Assembly (NCBI GenBank): GCA_013177815.1 | Contig: JABLXM010000010.1 | Span: forward strand, 1-43,884 | Source: Anaerolineae bacterium | GTDB lineage: Bacteria > Chloroflexota > Anaerolineae > Anaerolineales > Anaerolineaceae | DNA: 43,884 nt | Direction of reading: 5' to 3' | Part shown: in pieces, positions 14,512 to 25,658 of the stretch | Layout: the number at the start of each line of letters is the position of its first letter | How positions within the stretch are numbered: the stretch's first letter is position 1 | Notes under the pieces: generated by a model | Seen by the model: only the letters and a program-made list of their open reading frames with translations | Databases searched by the model: none | Told to the model about the DNA's origin: nothing | Position numbers and translations under genes: made by a program

Positions 14512-14593
<82 letters not shown>

Positions 14594-16758: not shown

Positions 16759-16786
16759 TTGATTTAATCTTATAAGTCAATATAAT
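16759..16786 (+). promoter_or_regulatory. Promoter with embedded operator upstream of the multiheme cytochrome operon
   Basis: TTGATT-N16-TATAAT; -35/spacer is the inverted repeat TTGATTTA-atctta-TAAGTCAA (7/8 pairs). Confidence 0.6.
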
Positions 16787-16844
16787 AGTAAATAGTGGTT
16801 AAATTTTTACACCTGATTTAGAAAAGGAGAAGAGACACCAGAAT

Positions 16845-19001
16845 ATGAGAACCAGCCATTTCAAGTATCTTGTGTTGGTGGGTATAGTTTTCCTCATGGC
16901 AGGGGTTCTGGCGGCTTGCGCGCAAACGACTCAGGTTCCAGAAGCGTCTCCGTGCCCGGAGGCGACACCATGCCCCGAGGTGCCAGAATCGGCGATGGTG
17001 GATGTGCCCTATGCCGACCTGTGGGCGGCTTCTGGTCACGCGGATGCCGCAGCGCCTGCTTTCACCCACTGGGATGAAGATGACCCGCAGGTTGTGGAGG
17101 TGGCGTGCGCCAAGTGCCACAGCGGCGCCGGATTCATGGATTACGTCGGCGCGGATGGCTCGGCGCAATTCACAGTGGATGTGGCGCCGCCGGTTGGGTC
17201 GGTTGTGACCTGCACGGCTTGCCATAATGATGCCACGGCAGACCTCAGTTCGGTCATGTTCCCGTCTGGCGTGATGATCGAAGGGTTGGGTGCCGAGGCG
17301 GTCTGCATGACCTGCCACCAGGGTAACGCTTCCAAGGTTCAGGTAGATGAATCGCTGGCTGGTGCAACCGATGAAGACACGGTTGTGCCCGACCTGGGCT
17401 TCACCAATATTCACTACTATGCCGCAGCCGTTGCACGATACGGCACGCTTGTCAAAGGCGGCTATGAGTACGATGATCAGACTTACGATGCAAAATGGGA
17501 ACATGTCCAGGGTGTGCAAACCTGCACAGATTGCCACAACTCGCACTCGCTAGAGTTGGAGTTGGAAACGTGTGTCACCTGCCACCCGGGCGCGACCAGC
17601 GTTGAGGGTGTACGTGACATCCGAATGCAGTCATCGAGCTCCGATTATGACGGCGATGGCGATGTGGAAGAAGGTATTGCCAGTGAGGTAGCAGGTTTGC
17701 AGGAATTGCTCTACAGCGCCATGCAAGCATATGCCAGCGAAATCGCCGGCAGTCCGGTCATCTATTCAGCCACAGCTTACCCGTACTTCTTCATTGACAC
17801 GAATGCGGATGGTCAGGCTGGAGAAGATGAAACGATCTTCCCCAATGCTTACAAGAGTTGGACGCCACGCCTGCTGAAGGCTGCTTATAACTACCAGACC
17901 TCCATCAAGGACCCCGGCGCCTATGTTCACGGCGGCAAGTATATCATCCAATTGCTGCATGACTCGATTGCCAGCCTGAACGAGAAACTTGCGACGCCGG
18001 TTGACCTGACGCTGGCGGAACGAGATGATCCGGGTCACTTTGCTGGCTCGGTGGAAGCCTTCCGCCACTGGGATGGTGAGGAGGATGGCGGCGTTGTGGC
18101 GCGAAGTTGTGCCAAATGCCACACCGGCACCGGATTGCCGCAGCTCATCGCCGAGGGCACCAACATCTCTCAGCCGGCGGGCGACGGCTTGTTGTGCGAA
18201 ACTTGCCACAGCGATGTGACCACCTTTGCGTTGTACGAACTCGAAACGGTCAGTTTCCCCAGCGGCGCGAAATTAGGTTTCGAGGGTTCGGCGGCGGACA
18301 ACATCTGCCTGAGCTGCCATCAGGGTGTCGAATCCACGGTCAGTGTCAACAATGCCATCACCGGGCTTGAACTGGATACCGTGGCAGAAGGTCTTGGCTT
18401 CCGCAACGTGCACTACTTTGCAGCCGGGTCTACTGTGTTCGGTACCGAAGCCAAGGGCGTGTATGAGTATGAAGGCAAAGAATACGCCGGTCGCTTTGCG
18501 CACCCCAATTATGAAACCTGCACTTCCTGCCACGATGCGCATATGCTCAAACCTGATATCGATGCTTGTGTGGGATGCCACCAGGTGGAGGACCCCGGTT
18601 CGATCAGGATGAATTCCAAAGGTGATTACGACGGCGACGGCGACACGACGGAAGGCTTGAAGGGCGAAACCGATACGCTGGCGGAGGCATTGTACACAGA
18701 ACTCCAGAAGTATGCCGCGGATGTGGTTGGTACGCCCATGGTCTATGCCTCCAGCGCGTACCCGTATTTCTTCATCGATACGAATGCCGACGGGGTCGCG
18801 ACGCCGGATGAGACCATCTATCCCAACCGCTACACCACGTGGACGCCGCGATTATTGCAGGCGGCTTACAATTACCAGTATTACCAGAAGGATCCGGGTG
18901 CCTATGTCCATAATGCGACCTATATGATGCAAGTGCTGTACGACTCGGTGGCTGACTTGGCGACCAAGACCGGCAGTTCTGTCCTAGGTGAGCGCCCATA
19001 A
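16845..19001 (+). CDS. Decaheme c-type cytochrome lipoprotein made of two pentaheme repeats with EF-hand-like loops
   Basis: 718 aa; lipobox VLAAC; ten CXXCH motifs (CAKCH, CTACH, CMTCH, CTDCH, CVTCH | CAKCH, CETCH, CLSCH, CTSCH, CVGCH); repeated YPYFFIDTNADG and DYDGDGD loops. Confidence 0.92.
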   Translation: MRTSHFKYLVLVGIVFLMAGVLAACAQTTQVPEASPCPEATPCPEVPESAMVDVPYADLWAASGHADAAAPAFTHWDEDDPQVVEVACAKCHSGAGFMDYVGADGSAQFTVDVAPPVGSVVTCTACHNDATADLSSVMFPSGVMIEGLGAEAVCMTCHQGNASKVQVDESLAGATDEDTVVPDLGFTNIHYYAAAVARYGTLVKGGYEYDDQTYDAKWEHVQGVQTCTDCHNSHSLELELETCVTCHPGATSVEGVRDIRMQSSSSDYDGDGDVEEGIASEVAGLQELLYSAMQAYASEIAGSPVIYSATAYPYFFIDTNADGQAGEDETIFPNAYKSWTPRLLKAAYNYQTSIKDPGAYVHGGKYIIQLLHDSIASLNEKLATPVDLTLAERDDPGHFAGSVEAFRHWDGEEDGGVVARSCAKCHTGTGLPQLIAEGTNISQPAGDGLLCETCHSDVTTFALYELETVSFPSGAKLGFEGSAADNICLSCHQGVESTVSVNNAITGLELDTVAEGLGFRNVHYFAAGSTVFGTEAKGVYEYEGKEYAGRFAHPNYETCTSCHDAHMLKPDIDACVGCHQVEDPGSIRMNSKGDYDGDGDTTEGLKGETDTLAEALYTELQKYAADVVGTPMVYASSAYPYFFIDTNADGVATPDETIYPNRYTTWTPRLLQAAYNYQYYQKDPGAYVHNATYMMQVLYDSVADLATKTGSSVLGERP

Positions 19002-19026
19002 TTCGGTTCCATATTACTGTATCCAC

Positions 19027-19061
19027 CATCCTTCCATCCTGAGTCTTGGGATGGAAGGATG
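19027..19061 (+). promoter_or_regulatory. Strong intergenic hairpin between cytochrome genes
   Basis: CATCCTTCCATCC-tgagtcttg-GGATGGAAGGATG, 13-bp perfect stem, not followed by a U-tract. Confidence 0.7.
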
Positions 19062-19192
19062 TCTTAAAAATAGATTACAAAATTCCTACAAAAAGTCTTG
19101 TATAATGAATTGGAGCACCCTGTGGCAGTTATTAGTTATTGCCGCGTTCCATGGACGGTTTTCCCATGCATCCCACATCACAGGAGATGAAA

Positions 19193-20443
19193 ATGAACCG
19201 ACCCAATCCAAGATTTTTCGGCTGGATGATGGTATCGGGTCTGGCGTTAATCGCAATTGCGCTTTCGATCTGGCTACTGGCAGCGCCGGTTGTGCCTGTG
19301 TTGGCGTCAGAACTGCCGGCTGCGCCAGCGCCCCAGGATGGCGCACCCAACAGCCAGTGCCTGCTTTGCCATGGTGAACCGGGGCAAGTAACTACTTTCC
19401 CCAACGGCGATCCGTTATATGTCTCGATCGATCCCAGTCTGTACGGCGCTTCTGTGCATGGCAGCGAAACGATGAGTTGTGTCTCTTGTCATGTCAATAT
19501 CAGTGGGTATCCGCATCCGGTCAGCGGCGCGCAATCCCGCCGTGATTACCAGTTGACTTACCTGGAAACCTGTAAAGCCTGCCACACTGAGCAGTTCGAT
19601 AATTTGCAGGACAGCATCCATGGTGAAATGTTCAAGGCTGGCAATGAGAATGCGCCCACCTGCACAGATTGCCACAACCCGCATACCCAGCCGCCAATGT
19701 ATAATGAAAGCGGCAAGGTCAACCAGAATGTGCGGGCAGAGATACCGGAGACCTGCGCCAAATGCCACAACAATATCTATGAAGTCTACGCCGGTTCGGT
19801 ACATGGCAGTGGTGTGATCGAGGGGAACAATCCCGATGTGCCAACCTGCGCCGATTGTCACGGCGTGCACGAGATCGTCGACCCCACCACGGCGAGCTTT
19901 CGCCTGAGTTCGGTCGAGATGTGCGCCAAGTGCCACACCGATGCGAGTATCATGGATAAATACGGGCTCTCGACGGCGGTGCTGGATACTTACGTGGCGG
20001 ATTTTCATGGCACCACCGTGACCCTGTTCGAGAAACAGCACCCAGACGAAGAGACCAACAAACCGGTGTGCTATGACTGCCATGGTGTGCATGATATCTT
20101 GAGTGTAAATGACCCTGAGAAGGGTATTGCGATAAAGCAAAATATGCTGGTGACCTGTCAGCGTTGCCACCCCGACGCTACCACCAATTTCCCGGAATCC
20201 TGGCTCAGCCACTATATACCCAGCCCGGATCGTTATCCGCTGGTTTATTGGGTGGGCATCTTCTATAAGATCTTCATCCCCACCGTATTGGGGGGGATGG
20301 GTTTGTTCGTGGCGACGGATATCTTCCGCCGCCAGGTAGAAAAGAAGAAAAAAAGTGAGCCTACTTCTCCCGATGAAAAATCCCCGCCCGGAGAGACAGG
20401 TGAGAAAGAAAATGCAAAATCAGATGAAGAGGTGAAGCCATGA
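19193..20443 (+). CDS. Membrane-anchored nonaheme c-type cytochrome
   Basis: Nine CXXCH (CLLCH, CVSCH, CKACH, CTDCH, CAKCH, CADCH, CAKCH, CYDCH, CQRCH); N-terminal signal/TM; C-terminal TM (IFYKIFIPTVLGGMGLFVATDIF) and charged tail; start at 19193 with SD AGGAGATGAAA. Confidence 0.9.
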   Translation: MNRPNPRFFGWMMVSGLALIAIALSIWLLAAPVVPVLASELPAAPAPQDGAPNSQCLLCHGEPGQVTTFPNGDPLYVSIDPSLYGASVHGSETMSCVSCHVNISGYPHPVSGAQSRRDYQLTYLETCKACHTEQFDNLQDSIHGEMFKAGNENAPTCTDCHNPHTQPPMYNESGKVNQNVRAEIPETCAKCHNNIYEVYAGSVHGSGVIEGNNPDVPTCADCHGVHEIVDPTTASFRLSSVEMCAKCHTDASIMDKYGLSTAVLDTYVADFHGTTVTLFEKQHPDEETNKPVCYDCHGVHDILSVNDPEKGIAIKQNMLVTCQRCHPDATTNFPESWLSHYIPSPDRYPLVYWVGIFYKIFIPTVLGGMGLFVATDIFRRQVEKKKKSEPTSPDEKSPPGETGEKENAKSDEEVKP

Positions 20444-21612
20444 GCGGCGAAAAAGGTTATAACCGTTTCTCGGTCAGCCAGCGTATCGAGCATATTGCAT
20501 TGGTACTCTCCTTCAGCACCCTGGGTTTGACCGGGTTAATCCAGAAATATGCCGCCTTTGGCATCTCGGACGCCCTTATCGTGTTCTTGGGGGGTATTGA
20601 GAACGTGCGCATCATTCACCGGGTGGCGGCGGTGATGTTCCTGGTTGAGAGCGTCTATCATCTGGTGGTGATCGGTTATAAAATGTTCGTTCTGCGGCTG
20701 GAAGCAAGTATGCTTCCTGGTTTGAAGGACGTCCGTGATGCCATTCAAGCATTATTCTACAATATCGGTTTGGGCAAGACGCGTCCCAAGATGGGGCGTT
20801 ATAACTTCGTGGAAAAAGCCGAATATTGGGCGATGTTGTGGGGTTTGATGGTCATGGCGGTCACCGGTTTCATGTTATGGAACCCAATTGCCACCACCCG
20901 GGCGCTGCCGGGGCAGTTCGTACCGGCTGCCAAGGTGGCTCATGGCGGTGAGGCAGTGCTGGCGGTGCTGGCGATCATCATCTGGCACTTCTATTCGGTA
21001 CATCTGAAGAAATTGAATTTGAGCATGCTGACCGGCAAGTTGAGCCGTGAGGAGATGGAAGAAGAACACGCCTTGGAATTGGAAGCGATCGAAGCCGGTA
21101 AAATAGCGGAACGACCGGCGCCGGCGGTGCTGCGCAAGCGCATGATCTGGTTCTCGCCTGTGGCGGCGGCGCTATCACTGTTGCTGGTCTATGGCATTTA
21201 TGTATTCGTGACGTATGAAGATACTGCCATTACGACCATCCCACCGGTGGAAAAGCCGGTTGAGGTATTCTCTACCCGCGAGCCGACGCCCCTGCCGCAA
21301 TTGGCGCCGGAGGCAACCACAGAGCCGGGCGAAAGCGTTGTTGGGGCAACCCCGTTATCCTGGAATGGCGAGATTGGTGTGCTGTTCGAGCAACGCTGCG
21401 GGATGTGCCATGGTCCGGCTGGCGGGCTGAACCTGACCAGTCTGGATGGGTTGCTGGCGGGAGGGGAATCTGGACCGGCAGTTGTCAGTGGCGATCCGGA
21501 GGCAGGTACGATCATGATCTCACAGACAAGCGGTAGCCATCCCGGGCAGTTCCTGCCAGAAGAGTTGGCGCGGGTCAATGAATGGGTCGCAGCAGGTTTG
21601 CCGGAAAAGTGA
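20440..21612 (+). CDS. Cytochrome b (b561/FdnI-like) membrane protein fused to a C-terminal monoheme cytochrome c domain
   Basis: 390 aa; multiple TM helices with conserved His (RIIHRVAAVMFLVESVYHLVVIG, KVAHGGEAVLAVLAIIIWHFYSVH), C-terminal FEQRCGMCHGPAGG...; ATGA overlap with the upstream gene. Confidence 0.87.
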   Translation: MSGEKGYNRFSVSQRIEHIALVLSFSTLGLTGLIQKYAAFGISDALIVFLGGIENVRIIHRVAAVMFLVESVYHLVVIGYKMFVLRLEASMLPGLKDVRDAIQALFYNIGLGKTRPKMGRYNFVEKAEYWAMLWGLMVMAVTGFMLWNPIATTRALPGQFVPAAKVAHGGEAVLAVLAIIIWHFYSVHLKKLNLSMLTGKLSREEMEEEHALELEAIEAGKIAERPAPAVLRKRMIWFSPVAAALSLLLVYGIYVFVTYEDTAITTIPPVEKPVEVFSTREPTPLPQLAPEATTEPGESVVGATPLSWNGEIGVLFEQRCGMCHGPAGGLNLTSLDGLLAGGESGPAVVSGDPEAGTIMISQTSGSHPGQFLPEELARVNEWVAAGLPEK

Positions 21613-21637
21613 ACCGATCTATTCGATTGTGTACTCT

Positions 21638-21666
21638 GACCGCGGCAAACGCCGCGGTCATTTTAT
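21638..21666 (+). terminator. Rho-independent terminator of the cytochrome operon
   Basis: GACCGCGGC-aaac-GCCGCGGTC then ATTTTATT; 25 nt after the stop codon. Confidence 0.8.
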
Positions 21667-21767: not shown

Positions 21768-21776
21768 AGATGACAG

Positions 21777-21849
21777 CGCCCCCGCGGCGACTCGAACGCC
21801 GAACCTTTTGCTCCGCAAGCAGACGCTCTATCCATTGAGCTACGAGGGC
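21777..21849 (-). tRNA. tRNA-Arg (anticodon reads GCG)
   Basis: Reverse complement GCCCTCGTAGCTCAATGGATAGAGCGTCTGCTTGCGGAGCAAAAGGTTCGGCGTTCGAGTCGCCGCGGGGGCG; 7-bp acceptor with one G-U, D/T arms canonical, anticodon loop TTGCGGA. Confidence 0.85.
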
Positions 21850-24825: not shown

Positions 24826-25658
24826 ACGCTGGGGATGGTCTGTCCATCGTCAACTCGGGTGTCGCGGATGTCACAATCGATGGCTTTGTGCCGGATTACA
24901 ATACCCAAAATATGATCAACATCAGCAGCCAGGGCGTGGTGACATTGAGCAACATCAGCGCCCGCAGTTCGGGCGGGAATGGGATCCTGGTCGACAACTT
25001 CGGCAGCGGAAAGCCGGTCAAGATTACCAGGGCGACGGTCTGGGGAGCCAGCGTGATCGGGATTCAACTCAAGACCAGCGGAAATGTAACCATGACGGAC
25101 GTATCTGCCAAGTCGAACAACGGTATTGGTGCGTTGATCGATTACATCACAATTCCTACCCAGCGGTAATGTGACTGAGACCGCCTCATCTGTGCGCAAT
25201 GAATTTTCGTACAACTACGAAGACAGCTTGTTCATCATAACAAAAGGCACGGTCGTGATCAGTAAGATGGATGTCACCAATAACAGCCAAATAGGTATCA
25301 ACGTCGACACGGTGAGCGGTACCGGAACAGTCACATGAGCGACATCTACGCCAAGGAGAACTGCGGATCGGGTGTAGCGATCGAAGCCAACAACATCATC
25401 AACCTGACCAAACTAAACGTCTATCGCAATGGTTTGGCGGGTAGTGCTTCTGGTGTGACGGTAATCTCTAATAATGCCAACATTAACGTTACCTCAGCGA
25501 ATATCATAGGCAATGCCAACTACGGCGTCCAGGCGACCGCCGGAAGCGGCACGTTGACGATCAAGCAGTCCAATTACTTTGGCAACCACTTCTTCGCTTT
25601 GCCGGTTGGCACGCCCAACATCAACATGATCTCCGGTACGCTGGTGATCATCCCATAA
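24826..25658 (+). pseudogene. Frameshifted 3' remnant of a right-handed beta-helix repeat surface protein
   Basis: Three reading-frame segments with continuous beta-helix-like repeats: GLSIVNSGVADVTIDGFV...ISSQGVVTLSNISARSSGGNGILVDN; GNVTETASSVRNEFSYNYEDSLFIITKGTVVISKMDVTNNSQIGINV; MSDIYAKENCGSGVAIEANNIINLTKLNV...GTLVIIP*. No start region present. Confidence 0.75.

Follow-up and report, generated by a model that had tools for sequence, protein, structure and literature searches.

Three consecutive cytochrome genes on the plus strand, here called A, B and C, probably encode a module for the respiratory export of electrons in a single-membrane anaerobe, in which electrons would run from menaquinol through C, B and A to an extracellular acceptor. 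The genes lie within positions 16759-21666 of the window, the whole 43.9-kb stretch of DNA that was analyzed, which is an entire contig of a 3.24 Mb, 89% complete genome. Together they carry 20 c-type heme sites, with ten CXXCH motifs in A, nine in B and one in C, and C matches the cytochrome b family PF01292. This gene content had been claimed in an earlier, sequence-only reading of the DNA. However, that reading placed the decaheme gene last, whereas A is the first of the trio. A six-frame scan of the window outside A, B and C found only a few isolated CXXCH matches, so the cluster of heme motifs is not a chance occurrence.

Gene A (16845-19001, plus strand) encodes a decaheme protein of 718 residues. 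A signal peptide and the lipobox GVLAAC, with its cysteine at Cys25, support its earlier description as a lipoprotein. The protein consists of two pentaheme repeats (17034-18002 and 18033-18983, both on the plus strand), which are 46% identical (E 4e-102). In a tree of the halves, the first halves formed one clade and the second halves another (supports 100/96 and 100/99), indicating a single old tandem duplication of the pentaheme module. Alignment of 53 homologs showed that ten proximal and ten distal histidines are conserved. The ten histidines outside the motifs (H65, 190, 220, 234, 362, 398, 523, 553, 566 and 689), one per heme, were kept in every row of the alignment that has the column. 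A profile search left A below the cut-off of every multiheme equivalog model, and comparison with PDB sequence profiles gave only a marginal match to nine-heme cytochrome.

Gene B (19193-20443, plus strand) encodes a nonaheme cytochrome of 416 residues, the best start being at 19193 after AGGAG. The protein has an N-terminal signal or anchor and a C-terminal transmembrane helix at approximately residues 349-387 followed by a basic tail, in agreement with the proposal that the nonaheme protein is membrane-anchored. All nine distal histidines are kept, eight of them in 102 of 102 homologs and H108 in 100 of 102. The PDB sequence profiles showed a weak relation of B to NrfA and NrfB. An eight-heme paralog of B was observed at L055:6343-13435 beside genes for an FeS protein, an NrfD-like membrane protein and a sensor kinase/response regulator; sets of this type occur in several genomes of one genus, which also carry A-E-B-C, where E is a further cytochrome gene described below.

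Gene C (20440-21612, plus strand) encodes 390 residues, in which an FdnI-type diheme cytochrome b is fused to a monoheme c domain. It matched PF01292 (1.4e-9), TIGR01583 of the FdnI/Ni-hydrogenase type (2.7e-16) and the PSCyt1 cytochrome c family (2e-7), and aligned with E. coli FdnI across the whole b domain (profile match 1kqf_C, E 1.3e-13). The quinol-oxidase-like cytochrome b of the sequence-only reading is thus of the quinone-linked FdnI type. PF00033 was also considered as the cytochrome b family, but there was no match to it in the genome. Within the b domain (20440-21099, plus strand), His18, His60, His168 and His183 are candidate ligands of two b hemes; they are invariant in 103 of 103 homologs and correspond in place to the b-heme ligands of FdnI. 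Four hydrophobic peaks were above the cut-off, and the fold of FdnI has four helices, to which C would add one before the c domain. The C-terminal class I-like c domain (21361-21609, plus strand) contains CGMCH, and the usual distal Met is replaced by His367 in an HPG motif; this histidine is present in 60 of the 63 homologs possessing the domain. In two relatives (L061:7145 and L082:7255) the frame of C stops without a heme motif, perhaps as a result of frameshifts or assembly errors.

A conserved second histidine is available to each of the c hemes of A and B, which leaves none of them open as a site of catalysis. An enzymatic function was considered and rejected, as the distal histidine is present for all hemes of A among its 53 homologs and of B among its 102. 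As judged from these alignments, a standard way of predicting heme ligation, the A and B hemes would be fully bis-His-ligated and would make electron carriers of the two proteins, not enzymes; the predicted ligation pattern of all three proteins suggests low-potential closed hemes that serve as wires. The predicted models had a mean pLDDT of 71 and 73 and are heme-free, so they are silent on heme-to-heme geometry. Fold searches of the A and B models against the PDB returned nothing at E <= 0.001. The best matches were HAO for B and, for A, chance-level ones including NrfA, with TM scores below 0.4, and no fold is claimed for either protein on this account.

The sequence-only reading had placed the three genes in one operon, and this holds only in part. 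B and C share 4 bases where the one gene ends and the other begins. However, a 13-bp perfect stem (19027-19061, plus strand), terminator- or attenuator-like and with only a short, weak T run, parts A from B-C. Within 120 bp downstream of A, 34 of 46 loci had a perfect stem of 10 bp or more, compared with 12 of 920 random windows drawn from these loci and 1 of 920 shuffles; 33 stems of 9 bp or more ended in T-rich sequence. The position directly after A is conserved, while the sequence of the stem is variable. With A first and a hairpin behind it, the trio is probably not one simple operon. Probably A is produced in larger amounts than B-C, with transcription continuing only in part past the hairpin, or A forms a unit of its own, and the position-conserved hairpin argues against a fixed A:B:C ratio. 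A consensus scan identified a promoter-like site upstream of A (TTGATT-16-TATAAT, 16759-16786, plus strand, 10/12 matches), which is weak because shuffled sequence yields just as many such sites as the region does. The gene set ends in a strong intrinsic-terminator-like hairpin (21637-21660, plus strand), a 10-pair stem followed by TTTTATTATC, and the interval ends just past it at 21666. Elsewhere in the window there are minus-strand genes for tRNA-Leu(CAA) at 14512-14593 and, just downstream of the cytochrome genes, tRNA-Arg(GCG) at 21776-21849. Short frames with beta-helix-like repeats and no single long frame at 24888-25658 are possibly a broken surface-protein gene.

A gene-neighborhood search, of the kind suggested with the sequence-only reading, showed that across genomes A, B and C keep together as a functional unit would. 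The closest relatives by B belong to Anaerolineaceae and other Anaerolineae (Levilinea, Thermanaerothrix, Bellilinea, Anaerolinea, Longilinea and many metagenome-assembled genomes), and of 396 genomes sampled from the class 212 had B, with weak matches up to E 0.001 counted. In 75 of 78 loci the gene immediately after B is C. Among 147 genomes of the family, B (E < 1e-80) and full-length A were each present in 36 and both in 35, a co-occurrence with two exceptions and a Fisher p of 1.5e-31, a statistic that ignores shared ancestry. In one exception (G060) the only A-like protein accompanying B is a divergent one with 9 hemes; the other (G002), a genome that is 61% complete, has A only. A lies within the neighborhood of B-C in 20 of 25 family loci and is unlinked to it in four genomes (G004, G005, G006 and G031), in two of which, G005 and G006, it is beside gene E. 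The module is present in the cultured type strains Levilinea saccharolytica, Bellilinea caldifistulae and Thermanaerothrix daxensis, and B-C also in those of Anaerolinea thermolimosa and Longilinea arvoryzae. A fusion of B and C was sought in the long open frames of G348 and G461, and none was found; in these frames B is fused to more multiheme sequence, or C is extended by additional CXXCH motifs.

Apart from local synteny, the only further recurrent partner in the family loci was the ImcH-like gene E, which in many relatives sits either in the A-B gap or behind C and was not found in the window genome. Its product has a PF03264 (NapC/NirT) match, CX3CH beside a single helix, six CX2CH, CX4CH and, at the C-terminus, a c domain resembling the one in C. 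An octaheme-FeS-NrfD set often adjoins B-C in other orders, where C often has no c domain and extra heme modules are sometimes fused to B. In another family, a 1253-residue 32-heme protein with GSu_C4xC__C2xCH motifs and a 630-residue 22-heme protein were observed beside B-C (L185:8941-14600). Single-module pentaheme relatives of A adjoin a ferric-reductase-like flavocytochrome b (PF01794 plus FAD/NAD domains) in ten inspected regions (L199-L206, L212 and L213, e.g. L199:8136-10864), which come from family genomes mostly without B-C. Cytochromes of the A family thus occur again and again beside electron sources in the membrane, and A-type modules may accordingly be supplied by different ones; the single-module relative and its flavocytochrome b are a possible second electron-export pair.

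The host genome was searched for the functions that surround such a module. MenA, which supports the classical menaquinone route, scored above the cut-off; the futalosine-pathway MqnA/D were not detected in the 89% complete genome. A CcmF/NrfE-family heme lyase is present. Neither COX1 (heme-copper oxidase) nor Omp85 was detected in the genome; nor was NrfA, for which PF02335 gave only a sub-threshold stretch of B. Given the completeness of the genome these absences are provisional, but they support a host that is an anaerobe with menaquinone and c-type cytochrome maturation and without an outer membrane. PF14537 matches in the genome are confined to the A-B-C locus, and the cytochrome set is small compared with Geobacter. 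There is no porin beside the trio, which together with the Omp85 result supports the suggested lack of a porin partner and the monoderm-like envelope. No terminal reductase is linked to the genes in the window or in the family loci, again as the sequence-only reading had it. FdnG/FdnH-type molybdopterin and FeS subunits are absent beside C in the window and in the family loci, and an Hmc/Nhc-type FeS protein with an NrfD-like membrane subunit is absent beside the trio in the window.

In the proposed mechanism, C would take electrons from menaquinol via its two b hemes and pass them outward to its own c heme and then to B, the nonaheme protein presumably fixed at the outer face of the membrane. 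B would hand the electrons to the lipid-anchored A, and A, if exposed at the surface, may relay them to an outside acceptor such as a mineral, a humic substance or a partner cell. A would thereby replace the periplasmic shuttle and the outer-membrane conduit, which a single-membrane cell would not need, although the wall of such a cell may bury the lipoprotein. This mechanism is favored by the FdnI-type b domain, the full bis-His ligation, the pairing of B with C and the co-occurrence of A with B, as well as by MenA and CcmF and by the failure to detect Omp85, NrfA or COX1. Counting against export are the absence of an ImcH-like gene from the window genome, its small cytochrome set and the fact that many members of Anaerolineaceae are described as fermenters. 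No experiment on any member of the A, B or C families was found in the open-access literature.

The possibility was considered that the same machine works inward or both ways, with Fe(II), a cathode or a partner cell as the electron source for A, and menaquinone reduced by B-C in the manner of MtoC; this reading, which also takes the form of direct electron exchange with methanogens, is unlikely. FdnI itself delivers electrons to menaquinone. However, Anaerolineaceae are organotrophic, for which the disposal of electrons is the likelier need; the remaining features fit both directions equally. MtoC, a relative of CbcL, has been implicated in reducing quinones, and the sequence has no feature by which the two directions could be told apart (PMC6295460), so the flow may be reversed. 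Furthermore, the current of Ardenticatena maritima is cathodic as well as anodic (PMC5808234).

It is also rather improbable that the proteins form a redox hub of the cytoplasmic membrane that feeds one or more unlinked reductases, soluble or membrane-bound, with no extracellular transfer. The octaheme-FeS-NrfD set beside relatives in other orders and the weak relation of the B profile to NrfA and NrfB are consistent with such a hub, and NapC/NirT-type quinol dehydrogenases are a common electron source of periplasmic reductases. However, the family loci contain no linked reductase, the genome search did not detect NrfA, and the ten hemes of A, a lipoprotein that co-occurs with B, are all closed. 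Very improbable is a role as a redox buffer or in protection from oxidative stress, in which the hemes would store charge or reduce traces of peroxide or oxygen. Multiheme proteins can store charge and the host has no detected heme-copper oxidase, but none of the hemes has a free ligand position and a dedicated quinone-linked cytochrome b indicates respiration.

The export of electrons from menaquinol through C, B and A would bear on a phylum that is abundant in digesters, sediments and the subsurface and in which extracellular electron transfer is often suspected. In the open-access literature no gene set assigned to this process in Chloroflexota was found, and no description of the A-B-C cluster. 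The cluster is a concrete, testable candidate that is present in cultured type strains. More tentatively, the class Anaerolineae might possess a modular export system for single-membrane cells, in which a pentaheme or decaheme surface protein of the A type is driven by interchangeable sources: the split CbcL-like B-C, the ImcH-like E or, for single-module A, an NAD(P)H-fed ferric-reductase-like flavocytochrome b. If this were true, organisms described as fermenters would respire, or feed partners, via their surface.

Among known systems, the FdnGHI formate dehydrogenase resembles the module in that C is related to FdnI, but the partners of C are multiheme cytochromes, with no FdnG or FdnH adjoining. 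The NrfAH and NrfABCD systems of nitrite reduction differ by their catalytic NrfA. The MtrCAB and Pcc porin-cytochrome conduits likewise relay electrons through decaheme and multiheme proteins toward the cell exterior; the trio, however, has no porin, its host has no detected Omp85 and A falls below all the multiheme equivalog cut-offs.

There is a close likeness to CbcL of Geobacter, which combines a diheme FdnI/HydC-like b domain with a nonaheme domain, all bis-His (PMC9129911, PMC6295460), and which G. sulfurreducens needs for low-potential acceptors (PMC9129911). B and C together would likewise provide nine bis-His c hemes and an FdnI/HydC-like b domain with conserved membrane histidines, as in CbcL, MtoC and MtrH, and would, like these, link the quinone pool to multiheme carriers further out (PMC9129911, PMC6295460). 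By analogy with its published composition, B-C may be the functional equivalent of CbcL split into two genes. Membership of the CbcL family is not claimed, because CbcL is a single chain and the likeness is one of composition, not of alignment. CbcL is one polypeptide, whereas B and C are separate genes (75 of 78 loci); its b part has six helices compared with perhaps five in C; and C has an extra c-heme domain in a module with no outer-membrane conduit. The duplicated pentaheme lipoprotein A is another real difference from CbcL/ImcH-type systems. In a 2018 survey, Chloroflexi had no CbcL homolog, and their one ImcH homolog was that of Anaerolinea thermophila, with one helix (PMC6295460). The signature of ImcH is CX3CH with six CX2CH (PMC6295460), and E of the relatives has CX3CH by its single N-terminal helix, six CX2CH before the c domain and the PF03264 match; it differs from ImcH by CX4CH, the C-type c domain and its location adjoining A-B-C.

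For the monoderm metal reducers Thermincola potens and Ardenticatena maritima, a multiheme route through the single-membrane envelope has been proposed (PMC5808234). No description of a B-C-A module was found in the open-access papers, and the cytochrome described in A. maritima differs in having seven hemes (PMC5808234). A. maritima is a Chloroflexota isolate for which anodic and cathodic electron transfer was shown experimentally (PMC5808234), and Anaerolineales of bioelectrochemical cells have large multiheme cytochromes and no porin conduits (PMC7399161). The sequence-only reading had described the architecture as distinct from the Mtr, Omc/Pcc and flavin-based systems. That distinction is weakened by the CbcL composition of B-C and the ImcH-like E of relatives, but it stands for the split genes, the extra c domain, the missing conduit and the duplicated A. 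The module shows how the logic of CbcL and ImcH may be built in a single-membrane cell.
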